Shown here piece by piece: positions 40,019 to 47,960 of a DNA stretch of 64,000 nt (positions are counted from its first letter, which is position 1; each line of letters begins with the position of its first letter). The position numbers and the translations under genes are program-made. Under the pieces are notes generated by a model. The model saw only the letters and a list, made by a program, of their open reading frames with translations, was not told the DNA's origin and searched no databases. The stretch comes from Nitrososphaeraceae archaeon (GTDB taxonomy: Archaea > Thermoproteota > Nitrososphaeria > Nitrososphaerales > Nitrososphaeraceae): assembly GCA_009377575.1 (NCBI GenBank), contig WHTU01000004.1:27029-91028 (forward strand), read 5' to 3'.

Positions 40019-40137
40019 GCCGGGGTACCCAAGCTAGGTAAGTCATCGACCCTAAAAGGGGTCAGCCTCGAGATCTTAGGCCTACGTGTAAGCTGATGTC
40101 CGTCAAGGACTCGTGGGTTCGAGTCCCACTCCCGGCG
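40019..40137 (+). tRNA. tRNA-Ser(CGA) with two probable introns
   Basis: Acceptor GCCGGGG (40019-40025) pairs with TCCCGGC (40130-40136) and the discriminator is G, as usual for Ser. The T-arm is GTGGG-TTCGAGT-CCCAC, and the long class II variable arm is GTCC-GTCAA-GGAC. The anticodon stem TCAGC/GCTGA encloses CTCGAG + 18 nt + A, giving anticodon CGA with an 18-nt intron at the canonical 37/38 site. The D-stem CCC/GGG encloses a loop about 14 nt too long, implying a second small intron there. Subtracting 18 and 14 from 119 nt leaves 87, a normal mature length. No CCA is encoded. Confidence 0.88.
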
Positions 40138-40214
40138 CTACAGTCGTGGGTTGATACACCAGAAAACCAAACGATTATAGCTGGGTGTAGTGCCTGGGAG
40201 GTACATAAAGACTG

Positions 40215-41242
40215 GTGAAAGGGAACAATCCCCCTCGCAAAGAGAAAATCCAAAGCTCATACGCACATGGCACAACATCATTAACTATAACTAAACAGAG
40301 CGAGAACGAACTATCTGTCAACCTTGAAAGACTTGTCAACAATCAATCAAACTATATCAAAAAATTATACAGACAAGTTTTAGACGCAAACTCGTGTAAC
40401 GCAATGATCATCCACGATTATATCATCGCTGAAGAGGCAGAGATTAATATTCAGGAATCTACAAAAGGCGATAAAATAAAAAAGCTCTGCTTGCTGTCTA
40501 GGTTTTTCGGTCACATGAAGTCTTTTTCCGAGATGACAAAAACTGACGTGCTAGGCTACCTTAACAGCTTACGGAAGCCGCTCACGGTTGACCCCATACA
40601 TAGGAGTATTGGAACATATAATGGAAGATAAATGGTATTCATGAAATTTTTTCGTTGGTTATACAATTCTGATGAGCCTGATCACAGAAAGAGGATCACG
40701 CCTCCATGTATGATGGGTGTAAAAGGTTTACCACGGAGAGAAAAATCTCCATATAAACCAGAAGACATATGGACATATGATGATCATGTACTATTTCTAA
40801 AATATTGTCATATGGCTAGGGATAGATGCTGGCATTCGATGGTTTGCGACACGTCAGCCAGACCCCATGAGATAATTAATCTGAGAATTGGAGATATTAA
40901 TTTCAAGATCTCCCATGACGGAATTCAATATGCGTAATTCATGTACATGGTAAGACAACTCCTAGAACCCTGCCCCTGATTACCTGTATACCATACGTCA
41001 AAGAGTGGTTAGGCATCCACCCATTTGCCAGTAACCAAAATTCGAAGCTCTTTGTTTCTCTTGGAAGAGCAAACTACGGTCAACCGCTCACACGAGATGG
41101 CATGTTGAAACACTATCAATCGTATTATCAAGATATATATTTCCCCAAACTAATGAAAGACCCGATAGTTCCAACTAAAGATAAAGAGGCTATTAGTAGA
41201 CTTTTGAACAAGCCATGGAATCTGTACATTATAAGTGCATAA
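40215..41242 (+). pseudogene. Inactivated tyrosine integrase
   Basis: One frame runs from GTG 40215 through TAA at 40629 (within YNGR-stop-MVFMKFFRWLYN, where relatives have Gln) to TAA 40935. A frameshift then joins HGKTTPRTLPLITCIPYVKE and FVSLGRANYGQPLTRDG, ending NKPWNLYIISA at TAA 41240. The catalytic Arg (SARPHEIINLRIGD) is visible, but the sequence stops just where the H-x-x-R box and nucleophile Tyr should follow. It cannot catalyse excision. Confidence 0.85.
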
Positions 41243-42495: not shown

Positions 42496-42693
42496 ATGAA
42501 TCTTTCAGAAGAATCGGAGTCTTCTAGTGATATCAGGAATCCTGATATGTATAGGCGCATTCAAGGAATCCTAGGTGAGCAGTCATATAGTTTGGTGTTG
42601 CCAAAAATTTTTGCAACAAATTTAGGCATCAGAAAGGGTGACTACGTCAAGGTTAGACAGTTGGGAGCTAAGATAATCGTGGAGAAAGCTTAG
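42496..42693 (+). CDS. SpoVT/AbrB-type small DNA-binding protein
   Basis: 65 residues; the last 40 (SYSLVLPKIFATNLGIRKGD, YVKVRQLGAKIIVEKA) form the swapped-hairpin AbrB barrel. The acidic N-terminus (SEESESSSDIRNPD) is variable. First gene of the rightward operon, 22 bp before the GHKL gene. Probable autoregulator, or an antitoxin-like regulator of the element. Confidence 0.85.
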   Translation: MNLSEESESSSDIRNPDMYRRIQGILGEQSYSLVLPKIFATNLGIRKGDYVKVRQLGAKIIVEKA

Positions 42694-42715: not shown

Positions 42716-43537
42716 ATGAATCCCCTTAATAATATTGCGCATAGAAAAGAGGAAAAGGTACTAATTGACAATAGCACTAAACAGAAAAAGAAAGGACCAA
42801 TATTAACATCAACATCACATTTAATGTCGTATCTCACGGTTAAGAACATACAGGCGGACCTACAAATTCAAGAGACAAAATGGCCCAAATATAGTGAAAA
42901 GGAGTTAACGGATAATAGTTATGACTGGCTCAACGATCATTATCCAGCACCGACTGCGGATGAAAAAGTAAGAAAGATCGCAGTACGCATAAAGATAGAT
43001 TCAATACTAGACAGCATGCAGAATGAGAGAATTATCCTCCGTTTAGTAGTACGAAACTCTAACATCGATAATATTCCGGTGTTTGAAGAACTTGGATACA
43101 TATTCGATTATGCCAAATGGGCTAGTACAAAACGGCATCAATATCGAATGACATGCGGCTCCCAAGGTGATTTCCTAAAAAGAAGTCTGTGTATGGGATA
43201 TGCATCGTGGACTGCCATGGACAACACAGAATATTCCTTCGAAGATAATCAATGGCCAGAACCAGTAATCCTCAGATTTAACGGACAGGAATACAAGGTC
43301 TTCGTAAGAATTGACATGTCTATCCCCAAGATAACTCCTGTCATAAAAGGACCTACTAAATGCGATGCAACAGCATTTACAGAAGTCGAAACAGCACTAC
43401 CAATAGAATCAACTGCGAACCAGAATTGGAAGAATAATGTCAACAGAGTATTAAACGAACTAGAAGACTATTATGAGAACTATATGATAGCCAAAACAGG
43501 AACTGAGTTTAGTTTTATAAGGACTGACTCCTTATAA
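42716..43537 (+). CDS. TopoVI-B-like GHKL ATPase domain protein
   Basis: 273 residues. The GHKL ATP-binding motifs are in order: N box KELTDNSYDWL (61-71, normally ELxDNxxDA), degenerate G1 region LRLVVRNSNIDNIPVFEEL (108-126, normally DNGxGI), ATP-lid WASTKR (135-140), and G2 box TCGSQGDFLKRSLCMGYASW (146-165), matching the RGxQGNALKxxLGxPYAL of type IIB topoisomerase B subunits. It ends after the GHKL domain, about half the length of TopoVI-B, with no transducer. Stop and start of the next gene overlap (TAATG), so the two are translationally coupled. Confidence 0.7.
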   Translation: MNPLNNIAHRKEEKVLIDNSTKQKKKGPILTSTSHLMSYLTVKNIQADLQIQETKWPKYSEKELTDNSYDWLNDHYPAPTADEKVRKIAVRIKIDSILDSMQNERIILRLVVRNSNIDNIPVFEELGYIFDYAKWASTKRHQYRMTCGSQGDFLKRSLCMGYASWTAMDNTEYSFEDNQWPEPVILRFNGQEYKVFVRIDMSIPKITPVIKGPTKCDATAFTEVETALPIESTANQNWKNNVNRVLNELEDYYENYMIAKTGTEFSFIRTDSL

Positions 43538-45528
43538 TGCAAAATAGTATTTACTATTACAAACCGGCTGACTTCAAACAATATGTTAGGACAATTGTTG
43601 ACATGTCAATTACTGTTTCGGGCGCATTAGATACATTTAGAGAAGTCAAATATTTACCTCGCAAGTTTAAAGAAATGACTGTAAAGGAATTATCTAATAG
43701 TCCTAAACTAATGCAGGTGTTGTATGATGCATTAAGACAAGGAATGCAACCTGAATCTAAATTCAAACTACTATATAAAAAGAAAGTCCGTGAGACACAA
43801 CTAATCAGGAGTATTGGAAAGAAATACAATGTTGATACAGATAGGTTGAGGGCTAAAGTGGTAACAGGATGTTACAGTGATGGTTACCAGACAATCCCGT
43901 ATGCGCTTGAAGTTGTAATAGCCCCTAGAACAGACATTGGTGTTGATCATGCTGGCGAAGTGAAATTCATTGGTAATATCAATAATACTCCGTCTATAGA
44001 TGGTGGGGAAGAATATTTTAGTGGTGGTGAGTACGCCTGGCGTGATAGAAAAGGCAATGCACTTACTGCATCAAGTATTATGGGTATATTAAGTGAGTGT
44101 GGATTTAACACTAGTGACTATTATTCGAGGAGAAGGAAGGCGTGTGTAGTTTTTGTAAATTTACTTACACCTGTTCCTGACTGGTTAGGCGGCGCAGGTA
44201 AGACAAAGATCGATTTAAGGCCGTATGCTAAAGTTATTGCAGAAACTGTTTCTAGATTCGCCTATAAAATGCCCTCATATCACGGTGAGGGCATAAAGAC
44301 TACGTGGACTGATGATTGGTCAGAAGATGATGACAACGGCGGAGGTAAAAAAGGCGAATATAAAGAATACCTTAGAGACTTCTTACGAGATAGACGCAGG
44401 GCAATAGAAGCAGACCCTTCTTTAAGGATAAGAGATAGACTTACACAATCGGGTGTATGGTATCGCATGCGTCCCAAAATGATAGAAGGTAGATTCAAAC
44501 CTCGAAACAAATCGACTAACAGCAAAGGTCAGATAATATACGATTGGGGGACAACCAGGGAAGGCCTGACAAATAAGATTAGAAAAACTATCGAAGAATT
44601 ATGGCCTGCAGAAGGTATTACCAGGGAATATCTAGGGATTGTTGCCAAAGCGAGAGCTATGATGTACTTTAATGATCAGGTATATCCTGTCAGTTTTGAT
44701 AGCAAAGAAGAACTTGCAAACACAAAGACAACCGATTTAATCATCGTTGAAAAAGAAGGCATTACAGATGTATTACTCGACGCAGCAAAAAGATATCGTA
44801 TAGCATTAGTTGCTACTGCTGGACAGTTCACAGATTATGTTCAGGATTTAATGCGATTGGCAGTTGAGGCTGGATTGAACGTTTGCATCCTGACAGACTA
44901 CGATATTCATGGAATAAACATATGGAGAAATGCGTATGTCAGAATTAATAGACTGGGCATTGATAGAGATACCATAAAATGGCTAAAAGAAAACGGCTAT
45001 CCTAACCTAAGAGAAAAAGATGTTGAAGAGGAATATTCGCCTAATCCTAAGTTATTTGAAGCTGGTGATGACCCATACCTACTAACAAAACGTATTGAAT
45101 TAGATTCTATAGTCGAAAAGGTTGGAGCAGATGCATTATGGAAATATCTTGTATATCGACTCGGCGTAGAATTTCCTGAAGCGAGGGACTACAGGAATGT
45201 TGTACCGGAACCAGAGCCTGAAGACTACTATACTGATGAGGTAAATGAGTTTCTAGACTATATCAGGAACTATATTAGAGGATCGTATAACGACGAATGG
45301 ACGGAAATAAAAGACCACGAACTTGCTAAGGTTGATGGATTGCTGGAAGTTGAAAAACAGAAACAGAAAGATGATGAAATACTGAAGCCTATAGTACAAA
45401 ATGATGAAGGTGTGAAATTAATCGCTTCAAAGTTAAGAGAATTGATGGAATCTGAGAAATTGCCAGAACCCAACCTTTCGACTGAATTTAAATCAGATCA
45501 AGATCAAAATAATCAAAAGAACGACTAA
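43537..45528 (+). CDS. Spo11/TopoVI-A-like TOPRIM protein with N-terminal transducer-like region
   Basis: 663 residues. The TOPRIM is LIIVEKEGITDVLL (401-414, catalytic Glu) with ILTDYDIHGINIW (451-463, DxDxxG metal site). Upstream, RLTQSGVWYRMRPKM (301-315) matches the winged-helix nucleophile-Tyr segment of TopoVI-A/Spo11, Tyr309 being the candidate. Residues about 115-245 (PYALEVVIAP, VVFVNLLTPVPDWLGGAGKT, KIDLRPYAKVIAETV) look like the transducer of TopoVI-B, including a possible switch Lys in GAGKTK. So the transducer seems fused to the cleavage subunit. The tail is acidic and coiled. Confidence 0.72.
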   Translation: MQNSIYYYKPADFKQYVRTIVDMSITVSGALDTFREVKYLPRKFKEMTVKELSNSPKLMQVLYDALRQGMQPESKFKLLYKKKVRETQLIRSIGKKYNVDTDRLRAKVVTGCYSDGYQTIPYALEVVIAPRTDIGVDHAGEVKFIGNINNTPSIDGGEEYFSGGEYAWRDRKGNALTASSIMGILSECGFNTSDYYSRRRKACVVFVNLLTPVPDWLGGAGKTKIDLRPYAKVIAETVSRFAYKMPSYHGEGIKTTWTDDWSEDDDNGGGKKGEYKEYLRDFLRDRRRAIEADPSLRIRDRLTQSGVWYRMRPKMIEGRFKPRNKSTNSKGQIIYDWGTTREGLTNKIRKTIEELWPAEGITREYLGIVAKARAMMYFNDQVYPVSFDSKEELANTKTTDLIIVEKEGITDVLLDAAKRYRIALVATAGQFTDYVQDLMRLAVEAGLNVCILTDYDIHGINIWRNAYVRINRLGIDRDTIKWLKENGYPNLREKDVEEEYSPNPKLFEAGDDPYLLTKRIELDSIVEKVGADALWKYLVYRLGVEFPEARDYRNVVPEPEPEDYYTDEVNEFLDYIRNYIRGSYNDEWTEIKDHELAKVDGLLEVEKQKQKDDEILKPIVQNDEGVKLIASKLRELMESEKLPEPNLSTEFKSDQDQNNQKND

Positions 45529-45785: not shown

Positions 45786-46712
45786 ATGTTGCAAAAGAAG
45801 GATGCCAATAAGAAGGACATCAGAAGAATAAGGAACGTATTTAACAGTTCTAAATATAGTTTAAGAATACTTTCGAAAATTTATTATGGTTATAGGCCGT
45901 CACAGATCGCTAGACAGTTAGGCATTTCAGTTCAGAATGTTAATTATTATACTAGCAATTTAATTGATCTAAAGCTCATCGAGAAAGTAATTGACAGAAG
46001 TGGGATTGTCTGGAAGGTAACGGAAAGAGGATTGTTTATACTACAACAATTTATCACACGGAGTGTAAATTCCCACAATAATCAAAATAATCCTAGTAGT
46101 CTGTTCTACGATGCTAAAATTCCTGTTAGACTTCATAATGTAAGTTTCGCCTTCAAAATTAATTGTTCTCTTGAACATCTAAAAATTCCATGGAAGGAAA
46201 TGAAGAATGGCGTTTCAAGACATACTGTGGTAAAAAAGAACAGGGAAGATGAAAATACAGTTGATTTGATAAAAACTTCTAACCTTACAAACTCAGTAAT
46301 GCTAGTTCACGTAAAGGAATCATTCACATTCAATAGCTACAAAGAGATAATTAGATTATACGAAGATGCACGGACAACAGCTGTACGAACTGCAGTTCAG
46401 CTGAGAATTGAAATATCAGCAACTGGTGGGCTAGTAAAGAAACCCCATTTTGCTTTTGAAGGTGATTTGATAGCCTTATATCTTGCTACATTTGAAACGG
46501 CAAGCATAAAGACAAAGAATGACAAAGGTAGGGTATGGGTTGATGCAAGTCATGGAGCTGGGGAACTAGAAACCAATGATCCTGATTACGCTTACAAATA
46601 TCTAACAATGCCTGAAAATGTCTTCGATCTTTCTAAAGACATTAGGAAAATAGAAAGTAAAATATCAGGATACAAGAGATGCTACGATCCCCTTGTTACA
46701 GACAACAATTGA
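45786..46712 (+). CDS. Element-borne winged-helix protein (308 aa)
   Basis: Residues 28-90 are a MarR/ArsR-like winged helix (KIYYGYRPSQIARQLGISVQ, NVNYYTSNLIDLKLIEKV, WKVTERGLFILQQF). The C-terminal two thirds are mixed alpha/beta (PHFAFEGDLIALYLATFETA, DASHGAGELETNDPDY), not recognised. It could be a replication initiator or regulator of the element. A 71-codon Arg-rich frame just upstream (45567-45782) is doubtful. Confidence 0.65.
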   Translation: MLQKKDANKKDIRRIRNVFNSSKYSLRILSKIYYGYRPSQIARQLGISVQNVNYYTSNLIDLKLIEKVIDRSGIVWKVTERGLFILQQFITRSVNSHNNQNNPSSLFYDAKIPVRLHNVSFAFKINCSLEHLKIPWKEMKNGVSRHTVVKKNREDENTVDLIKTSNLTNSVMLVHVKESFTFNSYKEIIRLYEDARTTAVRTAVQLRIEISATGGLVKKPHFAFEGDLIALYLATFETASIKTKNDKGRVWVDASHGAGELETNDPDYAYKYLTMPENVFDLSKDIRKIESKISGYKRCYDPLVTDNN

Positions 46713-46868: not shown

Positions 46869-47960
46869 ATGGCAAAAGAGAAAGCTAAAATCAAATCTGA
46901 TTCTGATGTCGATATGTCTGCCGTCGATAGTGATAATGCTGCGATCTCCGATGACGTTGAATCATTTAGAGATGCTGCCGATCTTGAGATAAAGGACATC
47001 GAAGGAATAGGACCAACGACAGCAAAGAAACTCAAAGAAGCGGGTATAGTTTCGGTATTGGAGTTAGCAGTAACTAGCGCTGACCAATTAGCGCTAGACA
47101 TTGAGTGTTCTAAAGATACCGCTGCAACATATATCATGGAATCTCAGAGGCTGCTAAGAAAATCCCAAGTACTAGAAAAGGAATTTGTGAGCGCTAATTT
47201 ACTTCTTGAAAAAAGGAAAGCTATGCTAAGATGCTCTACGGGTTCTAAGTCTTTGGATGAGTTGTTGCTGGGAGGACTAGAAACTCAAGCTGTTACGGAA
47301 TTTTATGGAGAATTTGGTTCAGGTAAATCACAAGTCTGTTTTACATTATGTGCTATGGCAAAACAACCTATAAGTGAAGGAGGCCTTGATGGAGGTGTAA
47401 TCTATATCGATACAGAAGGTACATTCAGACCTGAGAGATTAAATCAGATCGCTAGGGCAAGAGGTTTTGATCCATTGTTGGTTTTAAAGAATGTTGCAAT
47501 ATGTAAAGTATATAATAGTTCTCATTTGGAATTGATTATCGAAGATCTTGGTAGATACGTTTCTGCATTTAACGCCAAATTAGTAATAATAGACAGTATT
47601 ATTTCTTTACATAGGGCTGAATATCTAGGAAGAGGCACACTAGCGGATAGACAACAGAGGCTTAATGCCATACTGCATAAGCTAATAAGGCTGGCGGAAA
47701 TTTTCAACATAGCTGTTGTAATTACTAACCAAGTGCAATCATCTCCAGACATGTTTTTTGGAGATCCAACGAAAGCAACGGGTGGAAACATCATTGCCCA
47801 CACTTCTACATATAGAATATACCTTAGAAAATCAGGTGAGAATAGAATAGCTAAGATGGTTGACTCTCCCTATCATCCTTATTCTGATATACGTTTTACG
47901 GTTAATGAGAAAGGAATAGATGATACAGAAGAAACGCCCAAAGCCAAAAATAAGAAATAG
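46869..47960 (+). CDS. radA: RadA-family recombinase (possibly a second paralogue)
   Basis: 363 residues. A helix-hairpin-helix domain (IKDIEGIGPTTAKKLKEAG), the FxxA polymerisation motif FVSAN (106-110), Walker A GEFGSGKS (147-154), Walker B LVIIDS and the DNA-binding loop ending NIIAHTSTYRIYL are all present, so it should be an active RecA/Rad51-type strand-exchange ATPase. The N-terminal 36 residues are an Asp/Ser-rich extension. Location inside the element suggests an extra copy, but it could be the host gene captured or flanking. Confidence 0.85.
   Translation: MAKEKAKIKSDSDVDMSAVDSDNAAISDDVESFRDAADLEIKDIEGIGPTTAKKLKEAGIVSVLELAVTSADQLALDIECSKDTAATYIMESQRLLRKSQVLEKEFVSANLLLEKRKAMLRCSTGSKSLDELLLGGLETQAVTEFYGEFGSGKSQVCFTLCAMAKQPISEGGLDGGVIYIDTEGTFRPERLNQIARARGFDPLLVLKNVAICKVYNSSHLELIIEDLGRYVSAFNAKLVIIDSIISLHRAEYLGRGTLADRQQRLNAILHKLIRLAEIFNIAVVITNQVQSSPDMFFGDPTKATGGNIIAHTSTYRIYLRKSGENRIAKMVDSPYHPYSDIRFTVNEKGIDDTEETPKAKNKK

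Follow-up and report, generated by a model that had tools for sequence, protein, structure and literature searches.

The window, a stretch of 64,000 nucleotides from a Nitrososphaeraceae archaeon (genome G000, an assembly of 3.9 Mb in 380 contigs), contains a pair of overlapping genes that we interpret, with a probability of roughly two in three, as a split type IIB topoisomerase of the Topo VIII kind, likely borne by a mobile element, whose GHKL subunit would act in trans and which would pass strands in aid of the element. The sequence-only reading of this region had proposed a separate ATPase and a fusion of the transducer with the cleavage subunit. Profiles and predicted folds concur with this arrangement, and a search for co-occurring homologues with the same split recovered four further loci. 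Both open reading frames and their 1-nt overlap were confirmed in the sequence, and every motif quoted for the two proteins was found in the translations. The features of the gene pair are the following:

42716..43537, + strand: small subunit, a GHKL ATPase-type domain alone, 273 aa (hhalign, predicted fold)
42902..42925, + strand: N box ELTDNSYD (E63, N67, D70), from the alignment of 18 rows
43055..43057, + strand: G1-box position N114, aligned with Asp76 of Sulfolobales Topo VI-B
43157..43180, + strand: G2 box GSQGDFLK (G148, G151, K155), invariant in 18 rows
43535..43539, + strand: gene junction TAATG, in which stop and start share one base
43537..45528, + strand: large subunit, 663 aa, with H2TH-like segment, transducer, winged helix, TOPRIM and helical C-terminus
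43537..43836, + strand: H2TH-like helical segment, residues 1-100
43849..44271, + strand: transducer domain, about residues 105-245 (profile, Foldseek to Topo VI-B)
44200..44202, + strand: K222, predicted switch lysine, equivalent to K427 of Sulfolobales Topo VI-B (profile alignment)
44359..44721, + strand: winged-helix domain, about residues 275-395 (Foldseek to Topo VI-A 1d3y; alignment)
44461..44463, + strand: Y309, predicted catalytic tyrosine, equivalent to Y106 of Sulfolobales Topo VI-A (alignment)
44722..45036, + strand: TOPRIM domain, about residues 396-500 (hhalign to Topo VI-A; Pfam DUF2399 and TOP6A-Spo11_Toprim)
44749..44751, + strand: E405, equivalent to E209 of Sulfolobales Topo VI-A (alignment)
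44896..44904, + strand: D454 and D456, metal-binding DxD, equivalent to D261 and D263 (alignment)

Domain content of the two subunits

Judged by profile and by model, the 273-aa protein is a GHKL domain of the Topo VI-B type and nothing further, in agreement with the earlier suggestion that it has a GHKL layout and ends right after that domain. The small-subunit profile (18 rows) matched the GHKL domain of Topo VI-B with an E value of 1.5e-6 in hhalign, versus 0.47 for an unrelated Topo VI-A control, and when the AlphaFold2 model (pLDDT 80.8) was searched against the PDB the 13 best matches were all Topo VI-B. Pfam gave no match for the window small subunit, and among its relatives HATPase_c was matched in only three. 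Within the N box, N67 and D70 are invariant and E63 is found in 17/18 rows. The G1 box is a different matter. The G1 Asp of GHKL proteins contacts adenine, and none of the 18 rows of this family retains it (17 have Asn and one has Ser), so that ATP binding is not assured. The G1 box had indeed been called degenerate, and this holds; however, the change extends to the single-chain members and, being a trait of the whole family, it is uninformative on the split. Nucleotide binding may thus be altered across the entire family, whether split or single-chain.

For the large subunit we used a profile of 16 rows. Its first 100 residues had been left unnamed and correspond in position to the H2TH region; this is the weakest of our assignments, since the segment is collinear with the H2TH of Topo VI-B (hhalign) and all-helical in the model, and scores 2.2 bits (hmmsearch) when taken alone. 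Residues 115-245 had been likened to a Topo VI-B transducer with the Lys of GAGKTK as possible switch lysine. The profile matches all four distinct Topo VI-B sequences in the PDB through the transducer end (E 6.2e-5 to 2.5e-4; the match to 2zbk_B covers residues 405-474, E 6e-5), hhalign over H2TH plus transducer gave 9.6e-7 and Foldseek agrees, so that the comparison of the N-terminal 1-260 residues with the Topo VI-B transducer did return a match. The candidate lysine, K222, aligns with K427 and is invariant in 16/16 rows; K427 is the switch lysine, and Y106 the catalytic tyrosine, of Sulfolobus shibatae Topo VI. The same profile finds the genuine chromosomal Topo VI-B and VI-A genes of other archaea, each by the section of the profile where a match would be expected. 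With phmmer, neither of the single proteins matched any PDB sequence; only profiles gave matches.

The cleavage module follows, with the winged helix (GVWYRMRP) and the TOPRIM (VEKEG, DYDIHG) where they had been placed. Against Topo VI-A, hhalign gave an E value of 1.6e-11 over the TOPRIM, and the predicted structure of the large subunit (pLDDT 84.1) matched in Foldseek both Topo VI-A 1d3y (E 1.5e-6) and Topo VI-B 1z5a (E 2.8e-6) of the PDB. Y309, E405, D454 and D456, the residues singled out for comparison with the Topo VI-A active site, correspond to it in the sequence alignment and are each invariant in 16/16 rows. The best Pfam match of the TOPRIM segment was, nevertheless, DUF2399 (E 2.7e-5), PADLOC gave weak JetD matches, and two relatives (L061 and L067) have genes for a NACHT-pentapeptide protein and a STAND NTPase in their vicinity, all of which could point to a nuclease with a role in defence, akin to Wadjet JetD or to another DUF2399 protein. 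We consider this highly improbable: the DUF2399/JetD matches span about 70 TOPRIM residues only, no JetABC genes and no recurrent defence partner were seen in the neighborhoods, and GHKL, transducer and switch lysine together indicate the architecture of a topoisomerase.

Relatives and origin of the split

We have surveyed 70 genomes of the archaeal family to which the host belongs and found the large-subunit family in 11 of them, several with many copies, many of these decayed. Four layouts occur among the relatives: a single chain, the split of the window, a split like that of Topo VI, and a stand-alone cleavage subunit. Most relatives in the host's family are single chains of 814-1018 aa with the domain order of the window pair; all domains are present in one chain at L066, L071, L072, L073, L074, L075, L077 and L079 and, outside the family, at L078, while L076 and L027 are incomplete single-chain loci. 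The split of the window is shared by L061 (genome G008), L062 (G035), and L063 and L064 (both G001). These five pairs, which come from four genomes and three genera, are 41-51% identical and form one clade (100/100); L065 and L070 are decayed copies of the same layout. The Topo VI type of division, with the cut between transducer and winged helix, was found in L067 (682+344 aa; L067:2731-5789) and L068 (661+341 aa; L068:7514-10502), which form a clade of their own, separate from the window-type pairs (100/100). Cleavage subunits that apparently stand alone are encoded at L125, which belongs to the window's own genome, at L130, and at L081 from a distant family.

Some of these loci present features of their own. 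The window's own genome has a second topoisomerase-like gene, for a 437-aa stand-alone cleavage subunit (L169:1553-8407, on contig C313 of G000), with a related integrase of intact length 1.7 kb upstream. The distant stand-alone relative (L081:1474-2619, genome G253) has His at the position aligned with the catalytic Tyr and Arg in place of the TOPRIM Glu, and a McrBC-type gene is found a few kb away (L172:12255-13529).

Where it could be measured, dN/dS was between 0.11 and 0.24 in both subunits, with synonymous sites near saturation in several of the comparisons, and by these substitution patterns both genes of the pair are under purifying selection. The sequence of the junction varies among the split loci, which makes a shared frameshift signal unlikely. 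On the strength of the junctions, the 100/100 clade and the dN/dS values we rejected an origin of the split as a pseudogene or a frameshift. Alternatively, the pair could be a relic, a decaying element gene that has lost its function and whose inactivation began with fission. Broken relatives do exist (L065, L070 and others with internal stops), L064 is damaged C-terminally and the integrase of the window is broken too; but neither window ORF is interrupted and no catalytic residue is missing, and the split has been kept in a clade at 41-51% identity with the low dN/dS values just given for both genes. A relic is for these reasons very unlikely. As to its origin, the split topoisomerase is most simply explained as a Topo VIII-like single chain that underwent fission at its GHKL/H2TH linker, and not as a Topo VI that was rebuilt. 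One chain cut at two different linkers would then account for both divided layouts; because the root of the family tree is not fixed, that the fused form came first is the simplest reading only.

Probable mobile-element setting

Around the gene pair we have identified the following features:

40019..40138, + strand: tRNA-like sequence, possible integration site (3' likeness to tRNA-Ser genes)
40215..40937, + strand: tyrosine integrase remnant in two frames (weak Pfam matches; homologues near L068, L070 and L077 and in L169)
42496..42693, + strand: 65-aa AbrB-like gene directly upstream of the small subunit (sequence)
45786..46712, + strand: winged-HTH gene, 308 aa, downstream, context (Pfam HTH_24, GerE)
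46869..47960, + strand: Rad51/RadA-family gene, downstream, context (Pfam Rad51, E 8e-82)

The broken integrase lies 1.8 kb from the topoisomerase pair and begins 77 bases past the tRNA-like sequence, the last 43 bases of which share 88% identity with tRNA-Ser genes at their 3' end. The flank that is conserved in the relative G002 ends at base 40138, precisely the end of the tRNA-like sequence. ARAGORN, run with and without intron, called no tRNA at 40019-40138, and a search for direct repeats marking the element ends found none, nor was the right end of the window's element found. In several genomes of the genus, copies of the tRNA-like 3' end turn up close to the ends of contigs, a pattern that a frequently used integration site would be expected to produce. 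Integrases were found near the relatives L063, L068, L070, L073, L076, L077 and L079, Prim-Pol near L063 and L070, and MCM and PolB near L068, indicating that the topoisomerase genes belong to integrated replicating elements. Most likely, the window pair is carried by an integrated mobile element as well; the host has its own Topo VI-B besides.

Downstream of the topoisomerase genes of L068, a 1441-aa protein with an MCM helicase domain (L068:1917-6239) adjoins a PolB fragment, and ORFs related to it are present in L069, L070 and L130. The small gene preceding the window pair, for which the AbrB label is our own judgement of the sequence, is possibly in the same operon, and small ORFs similar to it were seen near four other topoisomerase loci (L063, L069, L071 and L079).

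The order topoisomerase, winged-HTH gene and Rad51-family gene is common to the window and L073 (L073:5774-7370), where the gene after the topoisomerase is related to the window's winged-HTH gene; in L160 a topoisomerase remnant is located upstream of RadA. Several RadA paralogues are present in G000. We set aside RadA as an obligate partner, and the link between topoisomerase and RadA is only suggestive, since orthologues occur in every relative searched and RadA adjoins few of the topoisomerase loci. These neighbors could, together with the replacement of the G1 Asp by Asn, the stand-alone cleavage subunits in the family and the RecA-type ATPase gene (so annotated) that adjoins Mini-A in phage NP1, fit a DNA breaker similar to Spo11, in which the large subunit cuts under the control of a GHKL-like subunit that does not hydrolyse ATP, and in which the breaks, together with the nearby RadA, serve recombination-dependent replication or integration. 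We regard this as unlikely, because a dead ATPase would not need the invariant G2 box and K222 or the N box that is kept, and RadA adjoins few of the loci. Still less probable, in our estimation, is a combination in which the GHKL protein would be a dissociable on/off subunit with altered nucleotide use, the enzyme being a topoisomerase when it is bound and a Spo11-like breaker when the large subunit is free, with the breaks handed to RadA for recombination-driven replication of the element. Were it true, prokaryotes would offer a parallel to the transition that led from Topo VI to the Spo11 complex of meiosis.

Proposed mechanism and comparison with known systems

For the split Topo VIII-like topoisomerase we infer that the subunits bind each other, use ATP and pass strands, in the following way. 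A single chain, cut at the GHKL/H2TH linker, would have given the 273-aa GHKL subunit and the 663-aa remainder. Two large subunits would form the DNA gate, in which Tyr309 of each works with the TOPRIM metal site of its partner, and two small subunits would dock on the transducers to make the ATP gate. In Topo VI the contact between switch lysine and ATP site is made within one chain; here K222 of the large subunit would complete the ATP site in trans, across the subunit border. ATP binding would then bring about closure, with one duplex cleaved and another passed, and strand passage would serve the replication or the resolution of the element.

In all type II topoisomerases known to us the ATPase and the transducer with its switch lysine are in one chain. 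In the window pair they are separated, with both genes under selection, which means that the ATPase can be omitted or swapped, so that the coupling between ATP binding and DNA cleavage becomes directly testable. Besides, a single archaeal family holds together single-chain forms, two differently split forms and stand-alone cleavage forms, a diversity that bears on the mutual origins of Topo VI, Topo VIII, Mini-A and the meiotic Spo11 complex.

Like Topo VI, the window enzyme has GHKL, H2TH-like segment, transducer with switch Lys, winged helix with Tyr, and TOPRIM with E and DxD. Topo VI, however, is an A2B2 enzyme (PMC7614492, PMC8185306, PMC8084294, PMC11302465) and carries all the Bergerat motifs including the G1 Asp (PMC11302465), for which 17/18 rows of the window family have Asn. 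It is cut between transducer and winged helix, B being GHKL plus transducer, as only L067 and L068 are among the relatives, while the cut in the window falls between GHKL and H2TH. In a tree of the A-domain alone, the family, Topo VIII and Mini-A fall together and apart from Topo VI-A (100/100, to be read with a warning of long branches). Takahashi et al. (2020) are said to have separated Topo VI, Topo VIII and Mini-A by a C-terminal motif.

Mini-A is a truncated cleavage subunit (PMC7614492, PMC8185306, PMC8084294, PMC11302465) that has neither transducer nor ATPase, whereas the window large subunit has a transducer. The family profile matches a 302-aa ORF of Pseudomonas phage NP1 (E 6e-6), and the two share a homologous cleavage module borne by mobile elements. 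We take this ORF to be the Mini-A of NP1; the gene annotated as a RecA-type ATPase directly adjoins it (L195:40435-42062). The stand-alone relatives L125 and L130 share the layout of Mini-A.

More distant parallels also exist. In the core complex of yeast Spo11 (Spo11, Rec102 and Rec104) the transducer protein, Rec102, also lacks a fused GHKL, and a portion of Rec104 is near the GHKL position (PMC11746154), but Rec102 is separate from Spo11, Rec104 is not demonstrated to be a GHKL and the switch loop is dispensable; by analogy, this would be a convergent parallel only. The topoisomerase of phage T4 (gp39, gp60 and gp52) is also a type II enzyme in more subunits than usual, though of type IIA and with its extra cut presumably near the TOPRIM region and not after GHKL. 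JetD and other DUF2399 proteins differ in that only the TOPRIM stretch matches and in the JetABC neighbors absent here.

No relatives were confirmed in viral contigs, where a single-protein query is sensitive to close relatives only; neither phages nor plasmids gave a match to a fused relative in tblastn, a scan of genome contigs with one fused protein recovered only its own record, and Foldseek against viral models gave no clear homologue. Plasmids searched for Topo VIII with Topo VI queries yielded only haloarchaeal Topo VI, the Paenibacillus polymyxa protein requiring profiles. The open-access literature searched contained no type IIB enzyme that combines a free-standing GHKL with a transducer joined to the cleavage module, and the pair appears to be a new split variant in an archaeal Topo VIII-like branch that our search did not find described before.

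The closest known kin of the window pair is, by sequence comparison, the plasmid-borne Topo VIII. Topo VIII, usually a homodimer, is found on plasmids and in integrated elements, and four cases are archaeal (PMC7614492, PMC8185306, PMC8084294, PMC11302465), reported solely from Euryarchaeota (PMC7614492); some of the known enzymes are weak or ATP-independent (PMC7614492). The family profile matches a 765-aa ORF of the P. polymyxa plasmid pPPM1a (E 4.9e-9, profile positions 212-607). This ORF is presumably the Topo VIII of P. polymyxa M1 (WP_014600290.1). The match is collinear from transducer to C-terminus, the domain order is that of the single-chain relatives, the G2 box is similar (RGALGN/DxL) and both enzymes are borne by mobile elements. 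Unlike the window family, with its Asn, the P. polymyxa protein keeps the G1 Asp (DYGIGI), and whereas Topo VIII is usually one chain, the window enzyme is two, cut after the GHKL domain.
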